Assembly: GCF_030317035.1 (NCBI RefSeq)
Contig: NZ_JASZYK010000002.1
Span: 124,001 to 188,000 of the forward strand
Source of the DNA: Variovorax sp. J22G73
GTDB lineage: Bacteria > Pseudomonadota > Gammaproteobacteria > Burkholderiales > Burkholderiaceae_C
Reading direction: 5' to 3'
DNA length: 64,000 nucleotides
Position numbers and translations under genes: made by a program. Below, in pieces: positions 49,313 to 60,905 of the stretch. The notes under the pieces were generated by a model. That model made no database searches and was not told the origin of the DNA. It saw nothing but the letters and a program-made list of their open reading frames with translations. Each line of letters begins with the position of its first letter. Within the stretch, counting starts at the first letter, position 1.

Positions 49313-51366
49313 CGTGCGTGCGCGGACGCGCGCTGCCCGGCTTGCTGCCCGGTTTGATGCTTGCAGCCGCGCTGCTCACCGGCTGCGCGGGCGTGAAGGT
49401 GGGCTCCATCTCCCCGGCCGACTACCTCGCGCAGCGCCGCGGCGACGTGCTCACCACCGGCAAGCTCAGCACCTCCGCGCAGGAGGTGCTGCGCGTGATC
49501 GGCTCCGACGCCGATCTGTGCGGCAAGAGCGGCCCCGCCTGCCGCACCGCGCTGGCCGACTCGCCGGGCCTGACCGACGAGCAGCGCCTGTCGGCCCTGT
49601 CGGAGGTGTGGCTGCAGGTGGCGCTGGCGGCCGACAAGGGCGGCACCACCGCCGAGCCTTCGTCGCCCGACACCGCCATCGAGGCCTGGCTGGAAACCGC
49701 CCGCCACGCCTACGCCTACCTCTTCTTCACCGCCCGCAAGCCGCGCGACCGCGCCTTCGAAGACCGCCAGACGCAGGTGCGCGACTACTACAACTACGCG
49801 GTGCAGCAGGCGATCACCGGGCTGTACCGGACGTACCAGCGCGCGGGTGCGGGCTCGGCGCCTCAGGCCCCGACCGAAGGCGCGCCACCGCAAGTTCCTC
49901 AGGTTCCCCAGGTCGGCAACTGGCGCATCGGCACCGACGTGACCGCGTTGCGCCTGCCCGCCGATTCGGCCCTGCCCGACGAGCTGATTCCCGCCGCATC
50001 GCTCACCTTCTCGGGCCTGCGCAACACCTACCGGCGCGACGGCTTCGGGGCCGAGCTGGTGGCCGCGGCCAGCAAGCGCACATACGACGAATCGCAGCAG
50101 CCCTCGGTGCCCTACCGCGAAACACCCTTCCCCGCCGTGACGGCGCTGCTGCTGTTCGACGGCAACAGCCTCGGCGAAATTTTGCGCACGCGTTCGCTGC
50201 GCATCGCGGCCTACGACCCGTACCGCACCGCGACCGTGCAGCTGGCCGGGCAAGAGGTGCCGCTGGCCGCCAACTTCACCTCCGGCTACGGCCTGTGGCT
50301 CGCGCGCTCGGACTTCGCGCTGCAGGCGCTGCGCAGCCTGTTCGGCAGCGCCGAGGGGCTGACCGAGCCGCGCATCTACCTGATGCAGCCCTACGACCCC
50401 GAGCGCCGCACCATCGTCATGCTGCACGGCCTGGCGAGCAGCCCCGAGGCCTGGATCAACGTGGCGAACGAGGTGCTCGGCGACGAAACGCTGCGTCGCC
50501 GCTACCAGGTCTGGCAGGTGTACTACCCCACCAACGCACCGCTGCCGCTGAACAACCAGGCCATTCGCCAGGCGCTGGAACAGACGCTGGCGCACTTCGA
50601 CCCATCGGGCAAGGCCGTTGCGTCCAACAACCTCACGCTGATCGGCCACAGCATGGGCGGCGTGCTGTCGCGGCTGATGGTGTCGTCGTCGGAAGACACG
50701 CTGTGGGACGCCCTGCTCAGCAGCTACCCCATGCAGGGCGCGCAGCAACAGCGCATGGAGGCCAAGCTGGCGCCCTACCTGCGCTTCGAGCCGCTGCCGC
50801 AGGTGAGCGACGCCATCTTCATTGCCGCGCCGCACCGCGGCACGCCGTTCGCCAACAACCGCGTCTCGCGCTGGGTGGCCAACCTGGTGACGCTGCCGGT
50901 GACCATGCTGGGCCAGCTCAACGACATTTCGCGCGAGCTGATCCGCATCGCGCCGGCCCGGCAGGACCTGGGCGCGTTTCGAATTCCCAACAGCATCGAC
51001 AACCTGAGCGACCGCGACCCGTTCGTGCGGCTGTCGTCGGGGTTGCCGATGAACCCGCGCGTGCGCTTTCATTCGATCATCGGCAACGACACGCCGGGCT
51101 TGGCGCAGGCGCTGTCGAGCGACGGCATCGTGCCCTACGAGAGCGCGCACCTCGACGGCGCTGCGTCGGAGCTGGTGATCGCGTCGCCCCACAGCGTGCA
51201 GGAGAACCCGCTGGCGATCCTGGAGATACGGCGCATCCTGCGCGAGCAGTTGGCGCCAGTGCCCGCACCTGCACCTGCACCTGCACCTGCACCTGCACCT
51301 GCACCTGCACCTGCACCTGCACCTGCATCTGCACCGGCATCTGCACCTTCGCGCGCCGCGCCCTGA
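49309..51366 (+). CDS. Lipoprotein alpha/beta hydrolase with Pro-Ala repeat tail
   Basis: A 685-residue predicted lipoprotein: signal peptide ends at lipobox LLTGCAG (Cys about residue 27). Residues about 30-350 form a helical domain of unknown type. About 355-640 is an alpha/beta hydrolase: IVMLHGLASSPEAW (oxyanion region), nucleophile S448 in LIGHSMGGVLSRLM, AAPHRGTPFANN, and a late SDGIVPYESAHL, typical of lipases and esterases. The tail (about 650-685) is a (PA)n repeat encoded by a hexanucleotide array. Coupled to the DUF4105 gene. It probably acts on lipids or lipoproteins of the outer membrane. Confidence 0.85.
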   Translation: MTCVRGRALPGLLPGLMLAAALLTGCAGVKVGSISPADYLAQRRGDVLTTGKLSTSAQEVLRVIGSDADLCGKSGPACRTALADSPGLTDEQRLSALSEVWLQVALAADKGGTTAEPSSPDTAIEAWLETARHAYAYLFFTARKPRDRAFEDRQTQVRDYYNYAVQQAITGLYRTYQRAGAGSAPQAPTEGAPPQVPQVPQVGNWRIGTDVTALRLPADSALPDELIPAASLTFSGLRNTYRRDGFGAELVAAASKRTYDESQQPSVPYRETPFPAVTALLLFDGNSLGEILRTRSLRIAAYDPYRTATVQLAGQEVPLAANFTSGYGLWLARSDFALQALRSLFGSAEGLTEPRIYLMQPYDPERRTIVMLHGLASSPEAWINVANEVLGDETLRRRYQVWQVYYPTNAPLPLNNQAIRQALEQTLAHFDPSGKAVASNNLTLIGHSMGGVLSRLMVSSSEDTLWDALLSSYPMQGAQQQRMEAKLAPYLRFEPLPQVSDAIFIAAPHRGTPFANNRVSRWVANLVTLPVTMLGQLNDISRELIRIAPARQDLGAFRIPNSIDNLSDRDPFVRLSSGLPMNPRVRFHSIIGNDTPGLAQALSSDGIVPYESAHLDGAASELVIASPHSVQENPLAILEIRRILREQLAPVPAPAPAPAPAPAPAPAPAPAPASAPASAPSRAAP
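51265..51348 (+). repeat. Hexanucleotide GCACCT tandem array
   Basis: Ten perfect GCACCT units (51265-51324) followed by four degenerate ones, encoding Ala-Pro pairs at the end of the lipoprotein hydrolase. Unit length is a multiple of three, so slippage lengthens or shortens the tail without frameshift. Confidence 0.9.
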
Positions 51367-51503
51367 TCAGAACTGCCATCGTGCCCTGACCGCGCCGTTC
51401 GCAGGCGCGGCCCCCACCACCGTGTTGAACATCGCCTGGGCCGCATGGGCCAGGCTCCGCCGTTGCCCGCGCGTGCCACCGGGTTTGCCCCAGTCTCGAA
51501 AAC

Positions 51504-51532
51504 TTTACCAGTCTTAAAAAAGATACTAATAT
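51504..51532 (+). promoter_or_regulatory. Candidate sigma-70 promoter of the orotate operon
   Basis: TTTACC (51504-51509) and TAATAT (51527-51532) with a 17-base spacer, each four of six to consensus, inside the most AT-rich patch of the region. The spacer and -10 include the interrupted inverted repeat AGTCTT/AAGATACT, a possible operator for the operon's own XRE protein. The MFS gene starts at 51641. Confidence 0.5.
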
Positions 51533-51640
51533 CGAAACTTGAACGGAACCCAGGGTTGCGCGACCTCTTCGTCTTCGCGGACCTTCCCAGCCAGTGATCC
51601 CGTGCGGCACACACCCCGCGCGCAGCCAGGAGTCGACAAC

Positions 51641-52906
51641 GTGGAAGCAAGAGTGAATTCATCGGCCACGGCCACGGCCGCGGACGCGGACGCCGCCCCC
51701 GGCCACGACAAGGTGACCGGCTACGGCTGGAAAGCCCTCGCGGGCTCGGCCGTCGGCTACGCCATGGACGGCTTCGACCTGCTGATCCTCGGCTTCATGC
51801 TCACCGCCATTTCGGCCGACCTGCACCTCACGCCGGGCCAGGCCGGCTCGCTCGTCACCTGGACGCTGGTGGGCGCCGTGGCCGGGGGCATCGTGTTCGG
51901 CTCGCTGTCCGACCACTACGGCCGCATCCGCGTGCTGACCTGGACCATCGTGATGTTCGCGGTGTTCACCGGCCTGTGCGCCTTTGCGCAGGGCTACTGG
52001 GACCTGCTGGCTTACCGCACGCTCGCGGGCATCGGCCTGGGCGGCGAGTTCGGCATCGGCATGGCGCTGGCGGCCGAGGCCTGGCCCGCAAGGCACCGGG
52101 CGCGCGTGTCGTCCTATGTGGCGCTGGGCTGGCAGACGGGCGTGCTCGGCGCCGCGCTGCTCACGCCACTGCTGCTGCCGCACATCGGCTGGCGCGGCAT
52201 GTTCCTGATCGGCGTCATTCCGGCGGTGGTGGCCTGGGTCATCCGCAACAAGCTGCACGAACCCGAGGTCTTCGTGCGCCGCCCGGCGACGAAGGGGCCG
52301 AAGACCAAGGCTTTTCGCCTGCTCGTGAAAGACGGCCGTACGGCGCGCACCAGCCTGGGCATCGTGACGCTGTGCGCGGTCCAGAACTTCGGCTACTACG
52401 GCATCATGATCTGGATGCCCAGCTTTCTCTCGAACAAGCTGGGCTTCAACCTCACCAAGTCGGCCCTGTGGACCTCGGTGACCATCCTCGGGATGATGGC
52501 CGGCATCTTCGTCTTCGGCCAGCTCGCGGACCGCATCGGCCGCAAGCCCAGCTTCCTGCTGTTCCAGGCCGGTGCCGTGGCCATGGTGCTCACCTATTCG
52601 CAGCTGTCCGATCCGGTATCGATGCTGTGGGCCGGCGCGCTCATGGGCATGTTCGTCAACGGCATGCTTGGCGGCTACGGCGCGCTGATGTCGGAGGCCT
52701 ACCCCACCGAGGCACGCGCCACCGCGCAAAACGTGCTGTTCAACATCGGCCGTGGCGTGGGCGGCTTCGGGCCGGTGGTGGTCGGCGCGCTGGCCACGGC
52801 GTACTCGTTCCAGGTGGCCATTGCCCTGCTGGCAGCCATCTACGTGCTCGACATGCTCGCCACGCTGTTCCTGATTCCCGAACTCAAGGGCAAGGAGCTC
52901 GAATGA
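51641..52906 (+). CDS. MFS transporter (aromatic acid:H+ symporter type)
   Basis: A 421-residue, 12-helix major-facilitator permease of the AAHS/BenK-PcaK group. AMDGFDLLILGFML carries the characteristic helix-1 acidic motif, GSLSDHYGRIRVL the loop 2-3 motif, GIGLGGEFGIGMAL helix 4, and FGQLADRIGRKP the loop 8-9 repeat. These symporters import aromatic carboxylates, which suits orotate, a heteroaromatic carboxylate. GTG at 51641 is chosen for AGGAG 9 bases upstream; GTG at 51653 is possible. It is the first gene of the operon, its stop overlapping the pyrK-like start (ATGA). Confidence 0.85.
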   Translation: MEARVNSSATATAADADAAPGHDKVTGYGWKALAGSAVGYAMDGFDLLILGFMLTAISADLHLTPGQAGSLVTWTLVGAVAGGIVFGSLSDHYGRIRVLTWTIVMFAVFTGLCAFAQGYWDLLAYRTLAGIGLGGEFGIGMALAAEAWPARHRARVSSYVALGWQTGVLGAALLTPLLLPHIGWRGMFLIGVIPAVVAWVIRNKLHEPEVFVRRPATKGPKTKAFRLLVKDGRTARTSLGIVTLCAVQNFGYYGIMIWMPSFLSNKLGFNLTKSALWTSVTILGMMAGIFVFGQLADRIGRKPSFLLFQAGAVAMVLTYSQLSDPVSMLWAGALMGMFVNGMLGGYGALMSEAYPTEARATAQNVLFNIGRGVGGFGPVVVGALATAYSFQVAIALLAAIYVLDMLATLFLIPELKGKELE

Positions 52907-53775
52907 CCACCGCAGCCGCCCTCCCCACGGCGCACGCCGCCTGCTTCCAGCGCAATGCGCAAGGCGTGGCCTCGCACCGTTGCGAGGTGGTCGAGCACCG
53001 CTGGGTGAACGACCGCTACCGCTACCTGCGCCTGTCGGCCAGCGCCGACCTGGCCGGCACCACGCGGCCCGGCCAGTTCTACCAGCTCAAGTGCCCGCCG
53101 GCGCAAGACCTGCACCCCTTCCTGCTGCGCCCCATGAGCGTGTACGGCACGGGGCCGGAGGCCGGAACCATCGAGTTTCTCTACAACGTCACAGGCGTGG
53201 GCACGCGTGCGCTCGCAAGCCTGGAGGCCGGCAGCCACATGGAAGTCGTCGGCCCGCTGGGCAACACCTTCGCGCTCGAACCCGGTGCCCGGCGCATCCT
53301 GGTGGTGGCGCGCGGCGTGGGCCTGGCCACCATGGCGCCGCTGGTGCAGCACGCCGCGCGCCTGGGTGTGCAGGTCAGCGCCGTGATGTCCGCGCGAGCG
53401 CCGAAGGACCTGATGCGCGACGAGTTCCTGCGCGGCGTGGACGCCGACGTGCACTGCGTGTACGACAGCGACGGCTCCTCGTCGGTCGAGGCCATGGAGG
53501 CACTGGTGCGCCGGCTGCTCGAAAAGGCCCGCCACGACGCGGTCTACACCTGCGGCTCGCACCGCATCCTGATGCTGCTGCAGCGCGTGCTGCAAGACCA
53601 TCCGCACACCCGCGGCGAGGTTGCCATGGAGCAGCGCATGGCCTGCGGCATGGGCGTGTGCCTCTCGTGCGTGCGGCTGTTCGACCGCGAGGGCGACAAG
53701 CAATTTCTTCGCGTGTGCCGCGAAGGCCCGGTGTTTCCCATTCGCGACGTCGTGGGGGAGGTGGAGTTTGGCTGA
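52903..53775 (+). CDS. pyrK: Dihydroorotate dehydrogenase electron-transfer subunit (PyrK-like)
   Basis: A 290-residue FAD/2Fe-2S oxidoreductase subunit that passes electrons between NAD(H) and PyrD. FAD-binding PFLLRPMSVYG (residues about 68-78), GPLGNTF and LVVARGVGLATMAPL; NAD region CGSHRILMLLQRVL; the iron-sulfur ligands are C248-X4-C253-X2-C256-X15-C272 (ACGMGVCLSC). All are intact. A 25-residue N-terminal extension is not conserved. It overlaps the MFS gene by ATGA and pyrD by 8 bases. PyrK with a class 1B PyrD is typical of Gram-positives; a Gram-negative using quinone-linked PyrD for synthesis would not need it. Confidence 0.88.
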   Translation: MTTAAALPTAHAACFQRNAQGVASHRCEVVEHRWVNDRYRYLRLSASADLAGTTRPGQFYQLKCPPAQDLHPFLLRPMSVYGTGPEAGTIEFLYNVTGVGTRALASLEAGSHMEVVGPLGNTFALEPGARRILVVARGVGLATMAPLVQHAARLGVQVSAVMSARAPKDLMRDEFLRGVDADVHCVYDSDGSSSVEAMEALVRRLLEKARHDAVYTCGSHRILMLLQRVLQDHPHTRGEVAMEQRMACGMGVCLSCVRLFDREGDKQFLRVCREGPVFPIRDVVGEVEFG

Positions 53776-54718
53776 CCTGAATGTCCGTATCGGCGAGCTC
53801 GAGCTGCGCAACCCGGTGATGCCGGCCTCGGGCTGCTTCGCCATCGAGTACAGCGAAGCACTCGACCTCGGCCGCCTGGGCGCGCTGGTGGTCAAGAGCG
53901 TGTCGCCCGTGAGCCGTGCGGGCAACCCCACGCCGCGGGTGAGCGAGGCGCATGCCGGCATGCTGAACTCGATCGGCATCCCCAGCAAGGGCCTGGCGCA
54001 CTACCGGCGCGAGGTGCTGCCCGCCTACACCGGCTTCGGGACGCCCGTGGTGGTCTCCATCTCGGCCGATACGGTCGATGAGTTCGCCGACGCCGTGGCC
54101 GAGATGTCGCTGCCCGAGGTGGCCGTGATCGAGGCCAACATCTCCTGCCCCAACCTGGAAGCCGACGGCATGGCCTTCGCCATGACGCCGGAGACCACCT
54201 ACAGGGTGGTGAGCGCCATTCGCCGCAAGACCCGCCACCCGTTCTGGGCCAAGCTCACACCCAATGCCTCGCACATTGCCGCCGTGGCCAAGGCCGCGGA
54301 AGAAGCCGGTGCGGACGCATTGGTGATGGGCAATACCGTGCTGGGCATGGCCATCGACGTGCGCACGCGCCAGCCCAAGCTGGGCAACGTGATGGGAGGC
54401 CTCTCGGGCCCGGCCATCAAGCCGATTGCCCTGCGCATGGTGCACCAGTGCTACCGCAGCGTGCGCATTCCCATCATTGGCTGCGGCGGCATATGCACCG
54501 CCGACGACGCGGTGGAGTTCATGCTGGCCGGCGCGAGCGCGGTGCAGGTGGGCACCGCGTCGTTCCTCGACCCCGGCGTGATGCAAAAGATCATCGACGG
54601 GCTGCAGGCCTACTGCGGCGAGATGGACGTGGCGCACGTGCGCGACCTTATCGGCCAGGTGAAGCTCGACCGGCAGCTGTCGGACCGCTGGCTGCGCTTT
54701 GCACAGCAGTCGGGCTAG
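53768..54718 (+). CDS. pyrD: Dihydroorotate dehydrogenase, class 1B catalytic subunit
   Basis: A 316-residue flavoprotein that interconverts dihydroorotate and orotate with NAD(H) through PyrK. LNVRIGELELRNPVMPASGC opens the TIM barrel; the active-site base is C127 in IEANISCPNLEADG, a cysteine as in class 1 enzymes (class 2 has Ser). AKLTPNASHIAAVAKAAEEA, GGLSGPAIKPIALRM and IIGCGGICTADDAVEFMLAG bind FMN. The TTG start overlaps pyrK by 8 bases and has GGGAGG upstream; no other start fits. NADH-linked type and neighbouring catabolic genes suggest it runs in the reducing direction, orotate to dihydroorotate. Confidence 0.9.
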   Translation: MADLNVRIGELELRNPVMPASGCFAIEYSEALDLGRLGALVVKSVSPVSRAGNPTPRVSEAHAGMLNSIGIPSKGLAHYRREVLPAYTGFGTPVVVSISADTVDEFADAVAEMSLPEVAVIEANISCPNLEADGMAFAMTPETTYRVVSAIRRKTRHPFWAKLTPNASHIAAVAKAAEEAGADALVMGNTVLGMAIDVRTRQPKLGNVMGGLSGPAIKPIALRMVHQCYRSVRIPIIGCGGICTADDAVEFMLAGASAVQVGTASFLDPGVMQKIIDGLQAYCGEMDVAHVRDLIGQVKLDRQLSDRWLRFAQQSG

Positions 54719-54728
54719 GAACACGGCC

Positions 54729-56003
54729 ATGGACCTGCTGGAACTGCGCCCGCTCGCCGAGAAGCTGTTCGACGACGTGCGCGCCCTGTCCTTCGACGGC
54801 GTGGGCGTCACGCGCGAAAGCTACGGGCGCGGCGAATCGGCAACGGCCGAGTACCTGTGCGAATTCGCGCGCGCCGAGGGCCTGGAGGCCGAGCCCGACC
54901 GGGCCGCCAATGTCGTATTTCGATTGCCTGGCACCGCGCGAGAAACGTCCGTGGCCTGGACCGGCTCGCACATCGATTCCGTGCCGCAGGGCGGCAACTT
55001 CGACGGGCTGGCGGGCGTGGTGGCAGGGCTGCTGTGCCTGGTGGCGCGCCAGCGCAAAGCCGATGCAGGGCACGCACGCGATGCAGCAGGGCTGCCCCTG
55101 GAAGTGCTGGCCTTCCGCGGCGAGGAAAGCGCCTGGTTCGGCAAGGCCTACATGGGCTCGGGCGCGCTATTGGGGAAGATCGGCGAGGCCGACCTCGCGC
55201 TCACGCAGCGCAGCACCGGCGAGACCCTGGCCGAGTGCATGCGCAAGGCCGGCGCGGATGTCGACGCCATCCGCGCGCAGCAACCGCTCTTCGACAGTTC
55301 GCGCGTGAAGGCCTACCTGGAACTGCACATCGAGCAGGGGCCGGTGATGGTTGCGCGCAAGTTGCCGCTGGCGGTGGTGTCGGGCATTCGCGGCAACGTG
55401 CGCCACAACCGCATCGTGTGCAACGGCGACGCGCAGCACTCGGGCGTGGTGCCGCGCTGGCTGCGCCACGACGCGATGTTCGCGGTGGCCGACCTGGTCA
55501 TGCGCATCGACGAGCACTGGCGCGTGCTGCTGGAGCGCGGCACCGACCTGGTGGTGACCACGGGCATCGTGCAGACCGACGCCGCCGAACATTCGATTTC
55601 GCGCATTCCCGGCCACGTGAGCTTCAGCCTCGAGGCCCGCAGCAAGAGCACCGACACGCTGGAGGCTTTCTACCAATTGATGCGCGCGGAGTGCACGGCC
55701 ATCGAGCGCGAGCGCGGCGTGCGCTTTGCATTCGACCGCCGCCTCGAAAGCGCGCCGGCCACGATGAACCAACGCATCTGCGGCGTGCTCTCCCAGGCTT
55801 GCGGCACGCTCGACGTGCCGTTCGACGTCATGCCGAGCGGTGCGGGCCATGACGCATCGCTCTTCGCCAACGCGGGCATTCCCAGCGGCATGCTGTTCGT
55901 GCGCAACCAGAACGGTTCGCACAACCCGCACGAGGCGATGGACATGGCCGACTTCATGCTCGGCGCGCAGGCGCTGAGCGACGCCTTCGGGCAACTGGAC
56001 TGA
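54729..56003 (+). CDS. N-carbamoyl-L-amino-acid amidase (predicted ureidosuccinase)
   Basis: A 424-residue member of the hydantoinase/carbamoylase family of M20 zinc amidases, whose members include beta-ureidopropionase, allantoate amidohydrolase and N-carbamoyl-L-amino-acid hydrolase. Metal-site elements are in order: [16 protein letters not shown] (H81), [36 protein letters not shown] and the final [10 protein letters not shown]. In this operon the natural substrate is N-carbamoyl-L-aspartate, releasing aspartate, CO2 and ammonia. The ATG has AGGAA 8 bases upstream, 10 bases after pyrD. Specificity for aspartate cannot be read from sequence alone. Confidence 0.88.
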
Positions 56004-56004
56004 C

Positions 56005-57072
56005 ATGCGCCCGCAGACCCTCACGATCCGACGCCCGGACGACTGGCACCTGCACCTGCGCGACGGCGACATGCTGCGCGCCGTGCTCGGCCACAGCACC
56101 GCCTCGTTCGCGCGCGCCGTCGTCATGCCCAACCTCCGGCAGCCGGTGACCACCACGGCGCAGGCGCGCGCTTACCGCGAGCGCATCGTCGCTGCCCTGC
56201 CAGCCGGCGCGCGCTTCACGCCGCTCATGACGGCGTACCTCTGCGACGGCACACCTGCCGCCGAATTGAAGCGAGGCTTCGAGCAAGGCGTGTTCACCGC
56301 CGCCAAGCTCTATCCGGCCGGCGCCACCACCCATTCGGAATTCGGTGTCACCTCCATCGCCAGCGTGGCCCCGGCGCTGGAGGCCATGCAGGCCCTGGGC
56401 ATGCCGCTGCTGGTGCATGGAGAAAGCACCGATCCGGCCGTCGACATCTTCGACCGCGAGGCCGTGTTCATCGACACCACGCTGCGCCCGCTGCTCGCGG
56501 ACTTTCCCGCGCTGAAGGTGGTGATGGAGCACATCACCACCGAGCAGGCGGTCGATTTCGTGCAGGCCGACCACAGCGGGCGGCTGGGCGCCACGATCAC
56601 GCCGCAGCACCTTCTGTTCAACCGCAACGCCCTTTTCACCGGGGGCATCCGGCCGCACTTCCATTGTTTGCCGGTGCTGAAGCGCGAGCGTCATCGGCTG
56701 GCGCTGCGCCGCGCCGCGACCTCGGGCGATGCGCGCTTCTTCCTGGGCACCGACTCCGCGCCGCATGTGCGCGCGCTGAAAGAGGCGGCCTGCGGCTGCG
56801 CCGGCATCTTCAATGCGCCGACCGCGCTGCAGGGCTATGTCACGGTGTTCGAGGAAGAAGGCGCCCTCGCGCACTTCGAGGCCTTCGCGAGCGAGAACGG
56901 CGCGCGCTTCTACGGCCTGCCGCTCAACGAAGGCACGCTCACCCTGTACCGACAGCCGGCGCAGGTGCCCGAAGACATCGCCCTGCCCCACGGCGCGGCC
57001 CTGCACCCGTTCCTGGGCGGCAGCACGCTGGCGTGGTCGCTGGGGCAGCCCCATGGACAGGAGTCTCTATAG
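56005..57072 (+). CDS. pyrC: Dihydroorotase (class II, E. coli PyrC type)
   Basis: A 355-residue homodimeric dihydroorotase, reversible between N-carbamoyl-L-aspartate and L-dihydroorotate. Zinc ligands H15 and H17 ([10 protein letters not shown]), the carboxylated lysine K101 in [26 protein letters not shown], and the catalytic GTDSAPH are intact, with usual length. It begins one base after the amidase stop. In a catabolic direction it opens the dihydroorotate ring for the amidase next door. Placement between a carbamoylase and a regulator, rather than with synthesis genes, is unusual. Confidence 0.93.
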
Positions 57073-57104
57073 TGTCTTTTTCGATCTCCGAGCAGGAAAA
57101 AGAG

Positions 57105-58010
57105 ATGACAGCAGCACCTCCGGCATTCAGGTCCTCTATCGACTATGCGGCGCTCGGCGACCGCCTGCGGGCCTACCGCATCGGCGCCTCGCTGCTGGCG
57201 GAGGACGTGGCCGAACAGCTCGGCATTTCGCGCGCCGTGGTCTATCGCATGGAAAAGGGCGAGATCGTCAAGATCGAAACGCTGGAACGCCTGGCCACCC
57301 TGCTGGACACCTCCCTCGCCTCGCTGCTGGGCGTGGAGGTGGAGTACTACGCCACCGCGCTCGGGCTGTTCGAGCGCATGCGCCAGCTCGAAGAGAACTC
57401 CGACCGCATCCTGGCGCACTTCGAGCCCATCTCGCTGCTGCTGACCTCCGACGACTACCTGCCGCATCTGCGCGAGATGTTGCTGGAGGCCTCGCCGCGC
57501 TCGCCCGGCAAGGGACCCAAGGTCTCGGACATCGACAAGATGCTGGAGATCATGGCCGAGCGCAAGGCCTTCTTCGAGAAGCGCAAGCCGCAGATCGTGA
57601 GCCTCATCGGCCTGCGCGAGCTGGAGCGCTTCGTGCACACCGGGCTGGTCGGGCGCGTCGACCTGCCGGCCAAAATCCGCGCCGAGCGCGTGCTGGCCGC
57701 GCGCCGCGAAGTGACCCGCATCGCCGACCTGATGGAGAGCGAGCCGTTCCATGTGCAGATCGGCCTGATCGACGACGCCATGCCGGCCTCGACCTTCCAG
57801 CTCTTCACGAGCGCCAGGCACGCGGTGCTGGCGGTCAGCCCGTTCCGCCTCGGCGAGCTGCCCAACGTGCGCAACGGCATCGCCACCGTCACGGCCTCGC
57901 CCGAAGCGGTGCGCATGCATGAAGAGATGATCGAGCGGCTCTGGAAGAGCGCCTACAAGGGCCGCACCGGCGCGCAGCACCTGCGCAAGCTGCTGGAGCG
58001 GATTCAATGA
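57105..58010 (+). CDS. XRE-family regulator of the pyrimidine operon
   Basis: A 301-residue regulator. The HTH occupies residues about 12-70 (LGDRLRAYRIGASLLAEDVA, then LGISRAVVYRMEKGEIVKI), followed by about 230 residues of helical, ligand-sensing or oligomerisation domain that I do not recognise. ATG at 57105 is chosen with AGGA 8 bases upstream; GTG at 57072, overlapping the pyrC stop, would add 11 residues. It is embedded in the operon, and its stop overlaps pyrE (ATGA), so it is made with the enzymes and likely autoregulates in response to orotate or a pathway intermediate. Confidence 0.85.
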   Translation: MTAAPPAFRSSIDYAALGDRLRAYRIGASLLAEDVAEQLGISRAVVYRMEKGEIVKIETLERLATLLDTSLASLLGVEVEYYATALGLFERMRQLEENSDRILAHFEPISLLLTSDDYLPHLREMLLEASPRSPGKGPKVSDIDKMLEIMAERKAFFEKRKPQIVSLIGLRELERFVHTGLVGRVDLPAKIRAERVLAARREVTRIADLMESEPFHVQIGLIDDAMPASTFQLFTSARHAVLAVSPFRLGELPNVRNGIATVTASPEAVRMHEEMIERLWKSAYKGRTGAQHLRKLLERIQ

Positions 58011-58726
58011 CACACGCACACCCCACCGCGGGCACTTCCGCCAGCGCCAGCGCCGGCGCCGGCGCCGACGCCGACGCCATGGCCGTGGCGGCCGGACTGA
58101 TCGATGCCGGCTGCGTTTCGGTTCGCACCGACGAGCCCTACCGCCTGCCCTCCGGCTGGGCCAGCCCGGTGTACATGGACTGCCGGCGGCTCATTTCCTT
58201 TCCGGCGTTGCGGCGCGACCTGGTGGCGCGCGGCATCGCACGGCTCGCGTCGCACGGCTGCACCGAGGGCCTTGCGGGCGTGGCGGGTGGCGAAGCCAGC
58301 GGCATCGCGCTGGCCGCGTGGATGGCCGAGGCGCTCGACCTTCCGCTGCAGTACGTGCGAAAGCGCGCGGCAGGCGCCAGCCAGGTCGAGGGCGTGGTGC
58401 CGGCCGGCGCCCGCGTGCTGCTGGTCGACGACCTGATGGCCGCGGGCCACTCCAAGCTGCGCTTCTGCCGTGCGCTGGCCGACGCCGGCGCGCAGGTTAC
58501 CGACCTGTTCGTGGTGTTCGACTACGCCACCTTCCCCACCGCGCAGTTGCTGGCCCCGCTGGGCGTGCGCGTGCATTCGCTCGCCACCTGGCGCGACGTG
58601 CTTGCCGTGGCGCAGCAGCGTGGCGACTTCACCCCTGCCGCCCGCGCCGAGTGGGCCGACTTCCTGGCCGCCCCCGCGGCCTGGTCGCAGGCCCACGGCG
58701 GACTCGGGCCCACCGCCCATTCATAG
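58007..58726 (+). CDS. pyrE: Orotate phosphoribosyltransferase
   Basis: A 239-residue phosphoribosyltransferase making OMP from orotate and PRPP. The PRPP-binding motif is VLLVDDLMAAGHSK (residues about 138-151), and the orotate-site segments WASPVYMDCRRLISFPALRR and LQYVRKRAAG fit PyrE. The first 25 residues are a low-complexity Ala/Ser/Gly/Asp stretch from repeated GCCAGC/GCCGGC/GCCGAC units. It overlaps the XRE gene by ATGA. Here it would let imported orotate enter UMP synthesis, competing with the degradative branch; it could also be the cell's only PyrE. Confidence 0.9.
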   Translation: MTHAHPTAGTSASASAGAGADADAMAVAAGLIDAGCVSVRTDEPYRLPSGWASPVYMDCRRLISFPALRRDLVARGIARLASHGCTEGLAGVAGGEASGIALAAWMAEALDLPLQYVRKRAAGASQVEGVVPAGARVLLVDDLMAAGHSKLRFCRALADAGAQVTDLFVVFDYATFPTAQLLAPLGVRVHSLATWRDVLAVAQQRGDFTPAARAEWADFLAAPAAWSQAHGGLGPTAHS

Positions 58727-58741
58727 AGGAGATCGAGAAAA

Positions 58742-59068
58742 ATGGAATTCATCGACATCGCCCGGCGCTTCGACAGCGCCACCTCGGGCACGGACGCCTT
58801 CAAGTCGTTCTACAAGGACGCCTTCGCACTCATGAAGGCCGACCCCGACAACGCCAGCCTGTACTTCGTGGTCGGCATTGCCGCGCAGTCGTATGTGCGC
58901 ACCTACGAAGACCAGGGCATCAGCGGCGAATTCGCCGACAGCGCCAAGGTCACGCTCGTGGGCTTCAACGCGAAGCTGGTCGAGGCCCTGGCCGCCGCGC
59001 CGCAGGAGCGGTTGCGCCTGCTGGGCGAGGTGGCCATCGACTACGAGTGGAACGTGCACAGCTTCTGA
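58742..59068 (+). CDS. Small conserved-looking protein, function unknown
   Basis: A 108-residue acidic, mainly helical protein that I do not recognise, without signal peptide or cysteines. It begins MEFIDIARRFDSATSGTDAF and ends EVAIDYEWNVHSF. A GAGGAG ribosome-binding site precedes it by about 10 bases, and it is 15 bases after pyrE, so it is the last operon gene. Its preserved frame, good ribosome-binding site and position suggest a real accessory function, perhaps a pathway chaperone or regulator. Confidence 0.65.
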   Translation: MEFIDIARRFDSATSGTDAFKSFYKDAFALMKADPDNASLYFVVGIAAQSYVRTYEDQGISGEFADSAKVTLVGFNAKLVEALAAAPQERLRLLGEVAIDYEWNVHSF

Positions 59069-59231
59069 ACCGGCCCCGCGGAAAAAATGCTGCGCTAACA
59101 TCCAGCCCGCGGTCGCAAGCCGCGCCCGGGCCCGCGGGAAGGGTTGAACCCACTTGCCTTCACATGACGATCCACAGCCTTTTGTGCAGCCGGATTTGCG
59201 GGCCGTCGGCGCCTGATGCACGGAGGTTTTC

Positions 59232-60905
59232 ATGAAGCGCATTCCCGCCCGGCCCGACATCGGCCATCTCAAGAAACAAGCCAAGGACCTGCTCGCGCTC
59301 TACCGCGGCAACGACCCCGCGGCCTTCGCCCGCTTTCGCGACGCGCTGCCGGCCGCCGCCGGCAAGACCGACACCACCCTCGCAGCCCTCGGCCTGCGCC
59401 TGCACGACGCGCAGTCGTGCGTGGCGCGCGAACACGGCTTTGCCTCGTGGGCCGACCTGCAGGGCTTCGTCGTCGCGCGCCGCGCGCAGGCGGACGACCC
59501 GGCCCGCGCGCTGCTGCACTGGCTGCGGCTGGTGTACGCGGGCGACATCTCGGGCGGCAACCACCGCGCGCGGCCCACGGTGGCGGCCCGGCTGCTCGAA
59601 GACGGCCCCGCCCTGCCCCTTCCGATGCCCGTGCTCGGCCAGGACCCCTACCTGGCCTGCGCCATTGGCGACGAGGCCGCGCTGCGCCGGGCCACCGCGC
59701 AAGACCCGGGCTGGCTGCACCGCGCCGGCGGCCCGCTGAACCTGCCGCCCCTCGTGGCCGTGACGCATTCGAGCCTGCTGCGCCTGCCGGCGTTTCGCGA
59801 GCGGCTGCGCGCGTGCGCCAGCTACCTGCTCGCAGCCGGTGCCGACGCCAACCAGTCGGCCGGCAACCGCTGGCCGCCGGCCTCGCTGGCCGCGCCCTCG
59901 GACACCGAGCGCCTGTCCGCGCTGTACGGCGCCGCCGGCCAGAACCACGACGTGGAACTCACCGAACTGCTGCTCGGCGCGGGCGCCGACCCGAACGATG
60001 GCGAGTCGCTCTATCACTCGCTCGACCAGCCGGCCTGCACCCGCCTGCTGCTGCAGGCCGGCGCGCGCGTCACCGGCTCCAACGCGCTGTACCGCGAGCT
60101 CGACCTGGACGACGTGGCCACGCTGCGCCTGCTGCTCGCGCATGGCGGCGACGCGAACGAACCGGCGCGCGGCGCACCCACCTCCGACTGGGGCACGCCG
60201 CTGCTGTGGGCCCTGCGCCGCCGCCGCTCGCCGGCCCACATCGAGGCCTTGCTGGCCGCGGGCGCCGACCCGGCCGCCACCACGCCCGACGGCACGCCCA
60301 CCCACCTCGTGGCCTTGCGCTTCGGCTTGACCGAGGTGGCGCGGCTGCTGCAGGCGGCGGGCGCCGACAGCGCCCCGCTGCCGCCCGATGAAGCCTTCGT
60401 CGCCGCCTGCGCCCGCGCGGACGAAGCGGCGGCGCGGCAGGTGCTGTCGCAGCACCCGGGCCTGATCGCCTCGCTGGGCGACACCCGCCTGAAGCTGCTG
60501 CCCGAGCTGGCGGCGCAGGGCTGCACCGACGCGGTGAAGACGATGGTCTCGCTCGGCTGGCCGATCGAGGTGCGCGGCGGCGACATCGACGGCTCGGCGC
60601 TGAACCAGGCGGTGTTCCGCGGCGATGCGGCGCTCACGCGCTTCCTGGTCGAGCACGGCGCCGACTGGCGCACGCTGCACGGCTACGGCGACGACGCGCG
60701 CGGCTCGCTGGCGTGGGCCTCGCTGAACGAGCCCGAGCCCGGTGGCGACTGGCTGGGCTGCGCGCAGGCGCTGGTGGCGCACGGCATGCCCGCCGCGCGG
60801 CCAGACCCGCAGACGCCCGACGCCGTGCTGGTCGGCGAAAAGCGCTACTGGTTCTCCGACGAGGTCACCGACTTCCTGCTCGGCGCATCGGCAGCGCAGG
60901 GCTGA
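59232..60905 (+). CDS. Ankyrin-repeat protein
   Basis: A 557-residue protein. The N-terminus KRIPARPDIGHLKKQAKDLL is typical of a family with a helical cap, followed by REHGFASWADLQGFV. From about residue 195 a series of ankyrin repeats runs to the end, recognisable by LLLAGADPN-like units (LLAAGADANQS, LLGAGADPNDG, LLLQAGARVTG, LLLAHGGDANEP, LLAAGADPAAT). No signal peptide, so it is probably a cytoplasmic protein-binding scaffold. GGAGG lies about 8 bases before the ATG. Separated from the pyrimidine operon by a 163-base spacer. Partner unknown. Confidence 0.88.
   Translation: MKRIPARPDIGHLKKQAKDLLALYRGNDPAAFARFRDALPAAAGKTDTTLAALGLRLHDAQSCVAREHGFASWADLQGFVVARRAQADDPARALLHWLRLVYAGDISGGNHRARPTVAARLLEDGPALPLPMPVLGQDPYLACAIGDEAALRRATAQDPGWLHRAGGPLNLPPLVAVTHSSLLRLPAFRERLRACASYLLAAGADANQSAGNRWPPASLAAPSDTERLSALYGAAGQNHDVELTELLLGAGADPNDGESLYHSLDQPACTRLLLQAGARVTGSNALYRELDLDDVATLRLLLAHGGDANEPARGAPTSDWGTPLLWALRRRRSPAHIEALLAAGADPAATTPDGTPTHLVALRFGLTEVARLLQAAGADSAPLPPDEAFVAACARADEAAARQVLSQHPGLIASLGDTRLKLLPELAAQGCTDAVKTMVSLGWPIEVRGGDIDGSALNQAVFRGDAALTRFLVEHGADWRTLHGYGDDARGSLAWASLNEPEPGGDWLGCAQALVAHGMPAARPDPQTPDAVLVGEKRYWFSDEVTDFLLGASAAQG

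Follow-up and report, generated by a model that had tools for sequence, protein, structure and literature searches.

The 64,000-nucleotide stretch of DNA from the soil bacterium Variovorax analysed here (the window; G000:C12:124001-188000, from a genome of 8.39 Mb in 35 contigs) carries an eight-gene operon that is very probably an accessory operon for the catabolism of orotate. All eight open reading frames (ORFs) lie on the plus strand between positions 51641 and 59068, and their ends overlap or nearly abut. The initial annotation had described eight co-oriented genes, mostly with overlapping or near-contiguous ends, and re-reading of the ORF coordinates returned every one of them at the same place. 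This arrangement is not due to chance. The operon consists of the following genes:

51641..52906, plus strand: MFS symporter that would import orotate (start codon GTG; PF07690, 205 bits)
52903..53775, plus strand: PyrK, predicted electron-transfer subunit with FAD, NAD and 2Fe-2S sites (PF10418 over cut-off; C-x4-C-x2-C-x15-C)
53768..54718, plus strand: PyrD of class 1B (TTG start inside the 3' end of pyrK; PRK07259, 364.7 bits; NISCPN)
54729..56003, plus strand: carbamoylase-type amidase of the M20 family, proposed to be an N-carbamoyl-L-aspartate amidohydrolase or ureidosuccinase (TIGR01879; Ser291-Arg292, Arg304)
56005..57072, plus strand: class II dihydroorotase, a PyrC paralogue (TIGR00856, 432 bits; metal-site and loop motifs)
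57105..58010, plus strand: XRE-family regulator, C-terminal domain without family label (HTH_31 and HTH_3)
58007..58726, plus strand: PyrE-like protein, catalytic loop not intact (under both PyrE cut-offs; YVRKRAAG---ASQVEG)
58742..59068, plus strand: small helical protein whose family is undescribed (nothing in Pfam or NCBIfam at E 0.001; five-helix model)

PyrD exceeds the curated cut-off of PRK07259 (269 bits) and belongs to the class 1B family. Its catalytic-base motif is the cysteine version, NISCPN, and this cysteine is the catalytic base of class 1 enzymes. PyrK matches the Pfam domain DHODB_Fe-S (PF10418; 52.6, cut-off 23.9) and contains the four cysteines listed above, while its scores for the four NCBIfam PyrK models all fall short of the cut-offs (best 129 vs 270). 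The dihydroorotase passes TIGR00856 (cut-off 293 bits), finds its best match among solved dihydroorotases with E 6.1e-140 and has the motifs WHLHLR, AAKLYP, VHGE, EHITT and GTDSAPH. The cysteines presumably bind the 2Fe-2S cluster, and we take the motifs of the dihydroorotase and of the amidase to form the metal sites. For the MFS protein the nearest NCBIfam subfamily is that of aromatic acid/H+ symporters (TIGR00895), whose cut-off it does not reach (353.5 vs 418.6). A search of the PDB with the XRE regulator gave no relative at E 0.01, and a scan of positions 51300-59400 for promoters and terminators was uninformative (no promoter-like site, with 0.4 expected, and two terminator-like sites, with 3.8 expected).

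Separate biosynthetic genes and distribution in Variovorax

The initial annotation had considered the operon catabolic rather than biosynthetic, a view that would have to be given up if the genome had no other pyrD, pyrC or pyrE and the operon were essential for pyrimidine prototrophy. As to the genome, all three were found outside the operon. A second PyrD, of the class 2 type, is encoded at C12:732558 and has NISSPN in place of the NISCPN of the operon copy. A second PyrC (C2:247546) shares 58% identity with the operon copy, its frame being open throughout with a single TGA at its end, and a canonical PyrE is encoded at C32:209603 (181.7 bits, compared to 68 for the operon copy). The operon therefore does not hold the sole copies of these steps in the genome, as a de novo pyrimidine operon would.

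An operon-type PyrD (at least 85% identity) is present in seven of 101 genomes of the genus, including the window genome, and all seven carry the operon. In the other genomes of the genus the best PyrD match does not come close (E 1e-23 or worse), and in three of them, with a completeness of only 58-73%, there is none. The genes of the operon were read in the window and four further genomes (L140-L143) and taken from the annotation in Variovorax sp. RA8 and V. paradoxus VAI-C (L014, L016); in G036 (L142) the dihydroorotase ORF is shorter. The same hydrolase and ankyrin-type genes flank the operon in G000, G056 and G101. In two of the six operon-free relatives fetched (G061, G047) these two genes are adjacent to each other, separated by gaps of 0.8 and 1.4 kb; in the remaining four the hydrolase gene lies outside the fetched stretch. 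Thus the catabolic assignment agrees with the separate PyrD, PyrC and PyrE, with a rare accessory operon and with the empty sites.

A duplicate biosynthetic operon was rejected on the separate genes, the distribution in the genus and the empty sites. More broadly, the operon might represent a second, NAD-linked set for pyrimidine synthesis, used for example at low oxygen, with the amidase draining surplus N-carbamoylaspartate. PyrK, PyrD, PyrC and the PyrE homologue all belong to biosynthetic families, and seven alphaproteobacterial genomes have no strong PyrE other than that of the cluster (see below). However, neither pyrB nor carAB is among the eight genes, which include instead an importer and an amidase that would destroy the intermediate. 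The PyrE-like copy lacks the catalytic lysine, the operon occurs in only a few genomes of the genus, and sister clusters contain genes for aspartase and malic enzyme. We regard this explanation as highly unlikely.

Some observations concern the surroundings of the operon. The hydrolase encoded upstream terminates in a long Ala-Pro repeat (window ~51250-51366). On two Variovorax plasmids (L014:15408-18748, L016:13379-16741) genes for a molybdopterin oxidoreductase, an oxidoreductase and a GntR regulator stand beside the operon, which possibly indicates a linked heterocycle oxidation; no genes of these kinds are among the ORFs read adjoining the window operon.

Conserved linkage of PyrK, PyrD and amidase genes

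A scan of contigs, for which nine amidases had been aligned, matched 594 stretches, of which 590 were confirmed. The best 80 of these were examined, and eight plasmid loci and the window itself brought the total to 89 loci. PyrK, PyrD and amidase genes occur together in 40 of these loci and are co-directional in all 40. These 40 include L079, with an amidase of only 422 bits, and L033, in which PyrK, PyrD and the dihydroorotase were each read in two pieces and which the PyrD tree does not include. Another 20 loci have an amidase of at least 550 bits and a PyrE-like gene, with no PyrKD in the stretch, and 29 more distant amidase loci (<550 bits) have neither PyrKD nor a PyrE-like gene. Absence of neighbours carries less weight where a stretch ends a few kb from the amidase (e.g. 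L038, L049, L057, L061, L066, L078; about nine of the 29 distant loci). L078 (487 bits, on a contig of 4.9 kb) was counted as distant and falls within the main amidase clade in the tree.

Of the 40 PyrKD-amidase loci, 26 have a PyrE-like gene, 26 encode the small protein, 25 carry an XRE-type regulator and 20 contain an MFS gene of the window kind. A dihydroorotase is encoded in 17 of them (class II in 14, the PRK09236 type in four, both in one). The catalytic core is constant, and the transporter differs from cluster to cluster (MFS, TRAP): TRAP transporter genes replace the MFS gene in the Nitratireductor cluster, and ABC transporter genes lie alongside the Agrobacterium cluster on the opposite strand.

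Aspartate as the likely product

Genes for aspartate ammonia-lyase lie in or adjoin five of the 40 PyrKD-amidase loci (L020, L028, L029, L030, L060), compared to no match in the 49 other amidase loci. The four enzymes scanned against NCBIfam, those of L028, L029, L030 and L060, pass the subfamily model NF008909, and the equivalog TIGR00839 is passed by L028 and L030 but not by L029 and L060. Malic enzyme genes are present in four of the 40 loci (L020, L030, L022 and L067, the last cut by the contig end), and a fifth (L063) has a weak fragment. In the Cupriavidus loci L020 and L030 the genes follow each other on one strand in the order MFS, PyrK, PyrD, amidase, PyrC, aspartase, malic enzyme and porin. 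This order suggests a route from orotate through dihydroorotate, N-carbamoylaspartate and aspartate to fumarate, and from malate to pyruvate.

Because aspartase and malic enzyme genes occur in related clusters, aspartate is the expected product. The route from orotate to aspartate by way of dihydroorotate and N-carbamoylaspartate had been put forward in the initial annotation; it accords with the linkage of PyrKD and amidase, and the linkage to aspartase and malic enzyme is the strongest evidence for it.

The amidase

The amidase is a member of the broad family TIGR01879 (267.5, cut-off 204) and remains under the cut-offs of its best-scoring models (NF006771, 374.6 vs 399). Its best relatives in the PDB are an L-carbamoylase (3n5f) and an allantoate amidohydrolase (1z2l). 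Residues H81, D92, E133, H200 and H398, presumably the metal ligands, are invariant in all 40 PyrKD-linked copies. In the alignment to 3n5f the Asn-Val of the NVIP segment is replaced by Ser291-Arg292, and the arginine thirteen residues past the Asn of 3n5f is kept as Arg304, again in 40 of 40 PyrKD-linked copies. We assume that the 3n5f positions aligned to the 291-292 segment and to Arg304 bind the substrate carboxylate in L-carbamoylase. Arg292 is found in 39 of the 40 PyrKD-linked copies and is a lysine in the other; its extra positive charge would fit a dicarboxylate substrate. Valine occupies position 292 in 16 of the 20 copies that have a PyrE-like gene and no PyrKD, and these form one clade (support 0.994). 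The alignment took in one of the five paralogues of the window genome. From the gene context and the position of Arg292 near the presumed carboxylate site we propose that the amidase is a ureidosuccinase (EC 3.5.1.7).

The amidase and dihydroorotase superfamilies also act on hydantoins, and ErtE, an N-carbamoyl-glutamate amidohydrolase of ergothioneine breakdown, is related to the amidase (275 bits, cut-off 520). An operon with shifted enzyme specificity might therefore degrade another cyclic ureide or orotate-like compound, such as hydantoin-5-acetate or a substituted orotate. PyrD and the dihydroorotase, however, lie well above their equivalog cut-offs, and hydantoins, as is generally known, need no redox step by PyrKD. 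Another ureide as substrate is accordingly very unlikely, and orotate remains the preferred one.

The valine clade represents a sister cassette, which lacks PyrKD and in which a PyrE-like gene stands beside an amidase of the same family whose substrate segment reads Ser-Val (L036, L038, L039, L041, L042, L047, L050, L051, L054-L057, L061, L065, L066, L069). The three of these cassettes that were scanned with Pfam (L042, L050, L051) have a divergent LysR gene and, nearby, a gene for a TctC or family 3 binding protein. Twelve genomes were searched for the PyrK Fe-S domain, ten of them from this clade, and in eight of the ten none was found.

The PyrE-like protein

The PyrE-like protein stays under the curated cut-offs of both PyrE models (TIGR00336, 67.3 vs 106.8; NF001729, 219.7 vs 245). 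In its mobile loop, YVRKRAAG---ASQVEG, the catalytic lysine is replaced by alanine and three residues are deleted. The deletion recurs in RA8, VAI-C, L028, L029, L034, L140, L141 and L142. Mutagenesis identified the loop lysine (Lys98 in Mycobacterium tuberculosis) as key to catalysis by the orotate phosphoribosyltransferase of Salmonella typhimurium (PMC5430920).

PyrE copies were counted in the window genome and in 16 further genomes, some of them metagenome assemblies, which cover 14 of the 21 scan loci in which PyrKD and a PyrE-like gene occur together, and two of the 20 that lack PyrKD. In seven genomes, all alphaproteobacterial (L043, L053, L060, L071, L073, L074, L075), there is no strong PyrE match besides the cluster copy, which has kept the lysine in all seven; here a biosynthetic PyrE gene seems to be lodged within the catabolic cluster. 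In the ten genomes with a second PyrE, two of which have the cassette without PyrKD, the lysine of the cluster copy is lost in nine and that of the second copy is kept in all ten. The exception is L033 (Cupriavidus basilensis), which keeps the lysine despite a second PyrE. Only the lysine, together with the deletion, separates the PyrE group of sole copies from that of the genomes with a second copy. Two other marks of a dead PyrE were rejected: loss of the loop histidine, since sole copies also have phenylalanine there, and an altered PRPP motif (e.g. TTDGGSK), which is seen both in sole copies and in second copies that are presumably biosynthetic.

Since the lysine is lost in the window copy and kept in the sole copies and in the second copies, the window protein was not filed as an orotate phosphoribosyltransferase and is probably not active as one. 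The initial annotation had assigned PyrE to a salvage branch, and this part is not supported: the operon copy lacks the loop lysine and three residues, and a canonical PyrE is encoded elsewhere. Furthermore, the PyrE-like protein seems dispensable to the clusters because its gene was not found in the operon of G060 (L143), on the Klebsiella plasmid described below or in three Pseudomonas clusters. Its likeliest role would be that of an orotate-binding sensor or partner.

The PyrE-like gene within the operon could also suggest that orotate mainly serves as a pyrimidine source, entering through PyrE as orotidine monophosphate (OMP), with breakdown being minor. Enterobacteria indeed take up orotate as a pyrimidine source through DctA, according to a review (PMC13328217). 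This explanation is most improbable, given a PyrE-like copy without the loop lysine, clusters in which the gene was not found at all and three gene products that would destroy orotate.

The small protein

The window member of the small-protein family has no match in Pfam, NCBIfam or PADLOC at E 0.001, and 18 members of the family gave no Pfam match better than E 0.013. Counting the window, an iterated profile detected family members in 27 of the loci fetched, namely in 26 PyrKD loci and as one unlinked copy. The latter (L025:2139-2480) is located on an Acinetobacter plasmid and has no orotate gene among its annotated neighbours. Structure prediction yielded a confident five-helix bundle (pLDDT 91.5, pTM 0.83), for which the PDB fold search returned nothing at E 0.001 or below. 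Profile searching also pointed to dehaloperoxidase (best E 0.00083), which we take to be a globin; this was set aside as the fold search gave it no backing.

In three Rhizobiales loci (Agrobacterium, a Rhizobiales isolate and Xaviernesmea) the small protein forms the C-terminal domain of the amidase. Because of this fusion the small protein probably acts on or with the amidase. The model of a fused protein (pLDDT 85.7, pTM 0.73) does not firmly predict how the two domains pack against each other. As the three loci group together in the PyrD tree, the fusions may go back to one event.

Mobility and Klebsiella plasmids

A related orotate operon, without the PyrE-like gene, is located on the Klebsiella pneumoniae plasmid CP120874.1 (L015:8160-13776), and its PyrD is 69% identical to that of the window. 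The stretch from pyrK to the small protein is present at full length and with at least 99.9% identity to this reference on 53 Klebsiella plasmids, and a near-identity search found it in none of 20,395 E. coli records. In the midpoint-rooted PyrD tree nine Burkholderiales sequences and the Klebsiella version form a group (support 1.0), apart from Pseudomonas, and the PyrD of Pigmentiphaga (Burkholderiales) falls with Pseudomonas. The operon was probably spread by horizontal transfer.

The lacYZ genes adjoin the orotate operon in L015 and, by coordinates, also in NZ_CP074520.1. Milk is rich in orotate. A source is stated for 45 of the 53 orotate plasmids, nine of which come from milk or mastitis, compared to none of the 51 source-stated lacYZ plasmids in a sample of 60 drawn evenly from 1324; this sample of 60 includes two orotate plasmids. 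Several of the milk records look derived from shared studies, and the association with milk is only suggestive. The main texts of two papers, on mastitis plasmids bearing lac and fec (PMC12724306) and on lac plasmids of dairy Salmonella (PMC10711319), do not contain the terms orot-, dihydroorot- or pyrimidine.

Proposed pathway

In the pathway that we infer for the operon, the MFS protein would import orotate, which the NAD-linked class 1B PyrKD would reduce with NADH to dihydroorotate. The dihydroorotase would open the ring to N-carbamoyl-L-aspartate, and the amidase would convert this to L-aspartate, ammonia and CO2 for nitrogen and carbon metabolism. The XRE protein may regulate the operon. 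The PyrE-like protein, a former orotate phosphoribosyltransferase, would now probably be an orotate-binding sensor or partner, and the small protein would act on or with the amidase.

Several points weigh against this pathway. The importer label of the MFS protein lies below its subfamily cut-off. No dihydroorotase of the two types searched is present in 23 of the 40 clusters, which would need one from elsewhere, and the window operon itself has no aspartase gene. Arg292 is not exclusive to PyrKD-linked amidases: the 29 distant amidases have lysine in 22 and arginine in three cases, and Arg292 also appears in four of the 20 copies without PyrKD. For two of these four genomes (L034, L044) a search was made, and no PyrK Fe-S domain was found in them. 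Finally, the locus also seems to touch biosynthesis in the seven alphaproteobacteria with a sole strong PyrE in the cluster.

A wider picture is offered tentatively, as a possibility somewhat short of an even chance. The PyrE without its loop would sense orotate or a ureido acid, or be a partner of the regulator or the amidase, and the five-helix family would be a subunit or stabiliser of the amidase. The pathway would have crossed bacterial classes and reached Klebsiella plasmids beside lactose genes (one such plasmid was read), where orotate in milk may select for it.

Comparison with known systems

The enzymology of orotate breakdown is long established, and to our knowledge no gene has been assigned to ureidosuccinase. 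No orotate-catabolic operon was found described in the literature searched, which comprised the titles and abstract openings of the papers listed, with most subscription papers outside its scope. The chemistry is thus already known, while the gene set was not found described there. The cluster would supply a testable gene for ureidosuccinase and for orotate import in these bacteria, and the Cupriavidus clusters would supply a whole route to pyruvate. It also suggests that PyrE, an essential biosynthetic family, shed its catalytic loop after a second copy entered a catabolic operon, and PyrKD in gram-negative genomes should not automatically be taken for pyrimidine synthesis.

The closest parallel is the fermentation of orotate by Clostridium (Zymobacterium) oroticum, which uses an NAD-linked dihydroorotate dehydrogenase, dihydroorotase and ureidosuccinase. 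The proposed chemistry, from orotate through dihydroorotate and N-carbamoylaspartate to aspartate, ammonia and CO2, is alike. Unlike that system, the window operon is proteobacterial, has an M20-family amidase and coexists with a class 2 PyrD elsewhere in the genome; it is an inserted or plasmid-borne unit with importer, regulator, PyrE-like and small protein. With the known class 1B PyrKD enzymes (PDB 1ep1, which we take to be PyrD of Lactococcus lactis, and 5ue9) it shares a PyrD aligned over residues 4-299, the NISCPN motif and the Fe-S domain of PyrK. In contrast to them the window copy is clustered with an amidase, separate biosynthetic genes exist and the presumed direction is reduction.

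The amidase belongs to one family with the L-N-carbamoylase 3n5f and the allantoate amidohydrolase 1z2l and shares their metal-site residues and their second arginine of the carboxylate site, but it has Ser-Arg at the place of the Asn-Val of 3n5f. The pyd operon, which encodes dihydropyrimidine dehydrogenase, dihydropyrimidinase and beta-ureidopropionase for reductive uracil catabolism, likewise combines ring reduction, ring opening and loss of the carbamoyl group, and the amidase superfamily includes beta-alanine synthase. The window operon does not belong to this type: its reductase falls under PRK07259 and scores only 141.8 against the PreA model (cut-off 335), and its ring opener falls under TIGR00856. 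The initial annotation had drawn the same distinction, dihydroorotase rather than dihydropyrimidinase. Where pyd has dihydropyrimidinase, PreA/PreT and beta-alanine, the window operon has dihydroorotase, PyrKD and, as the predicted product, aspartate.

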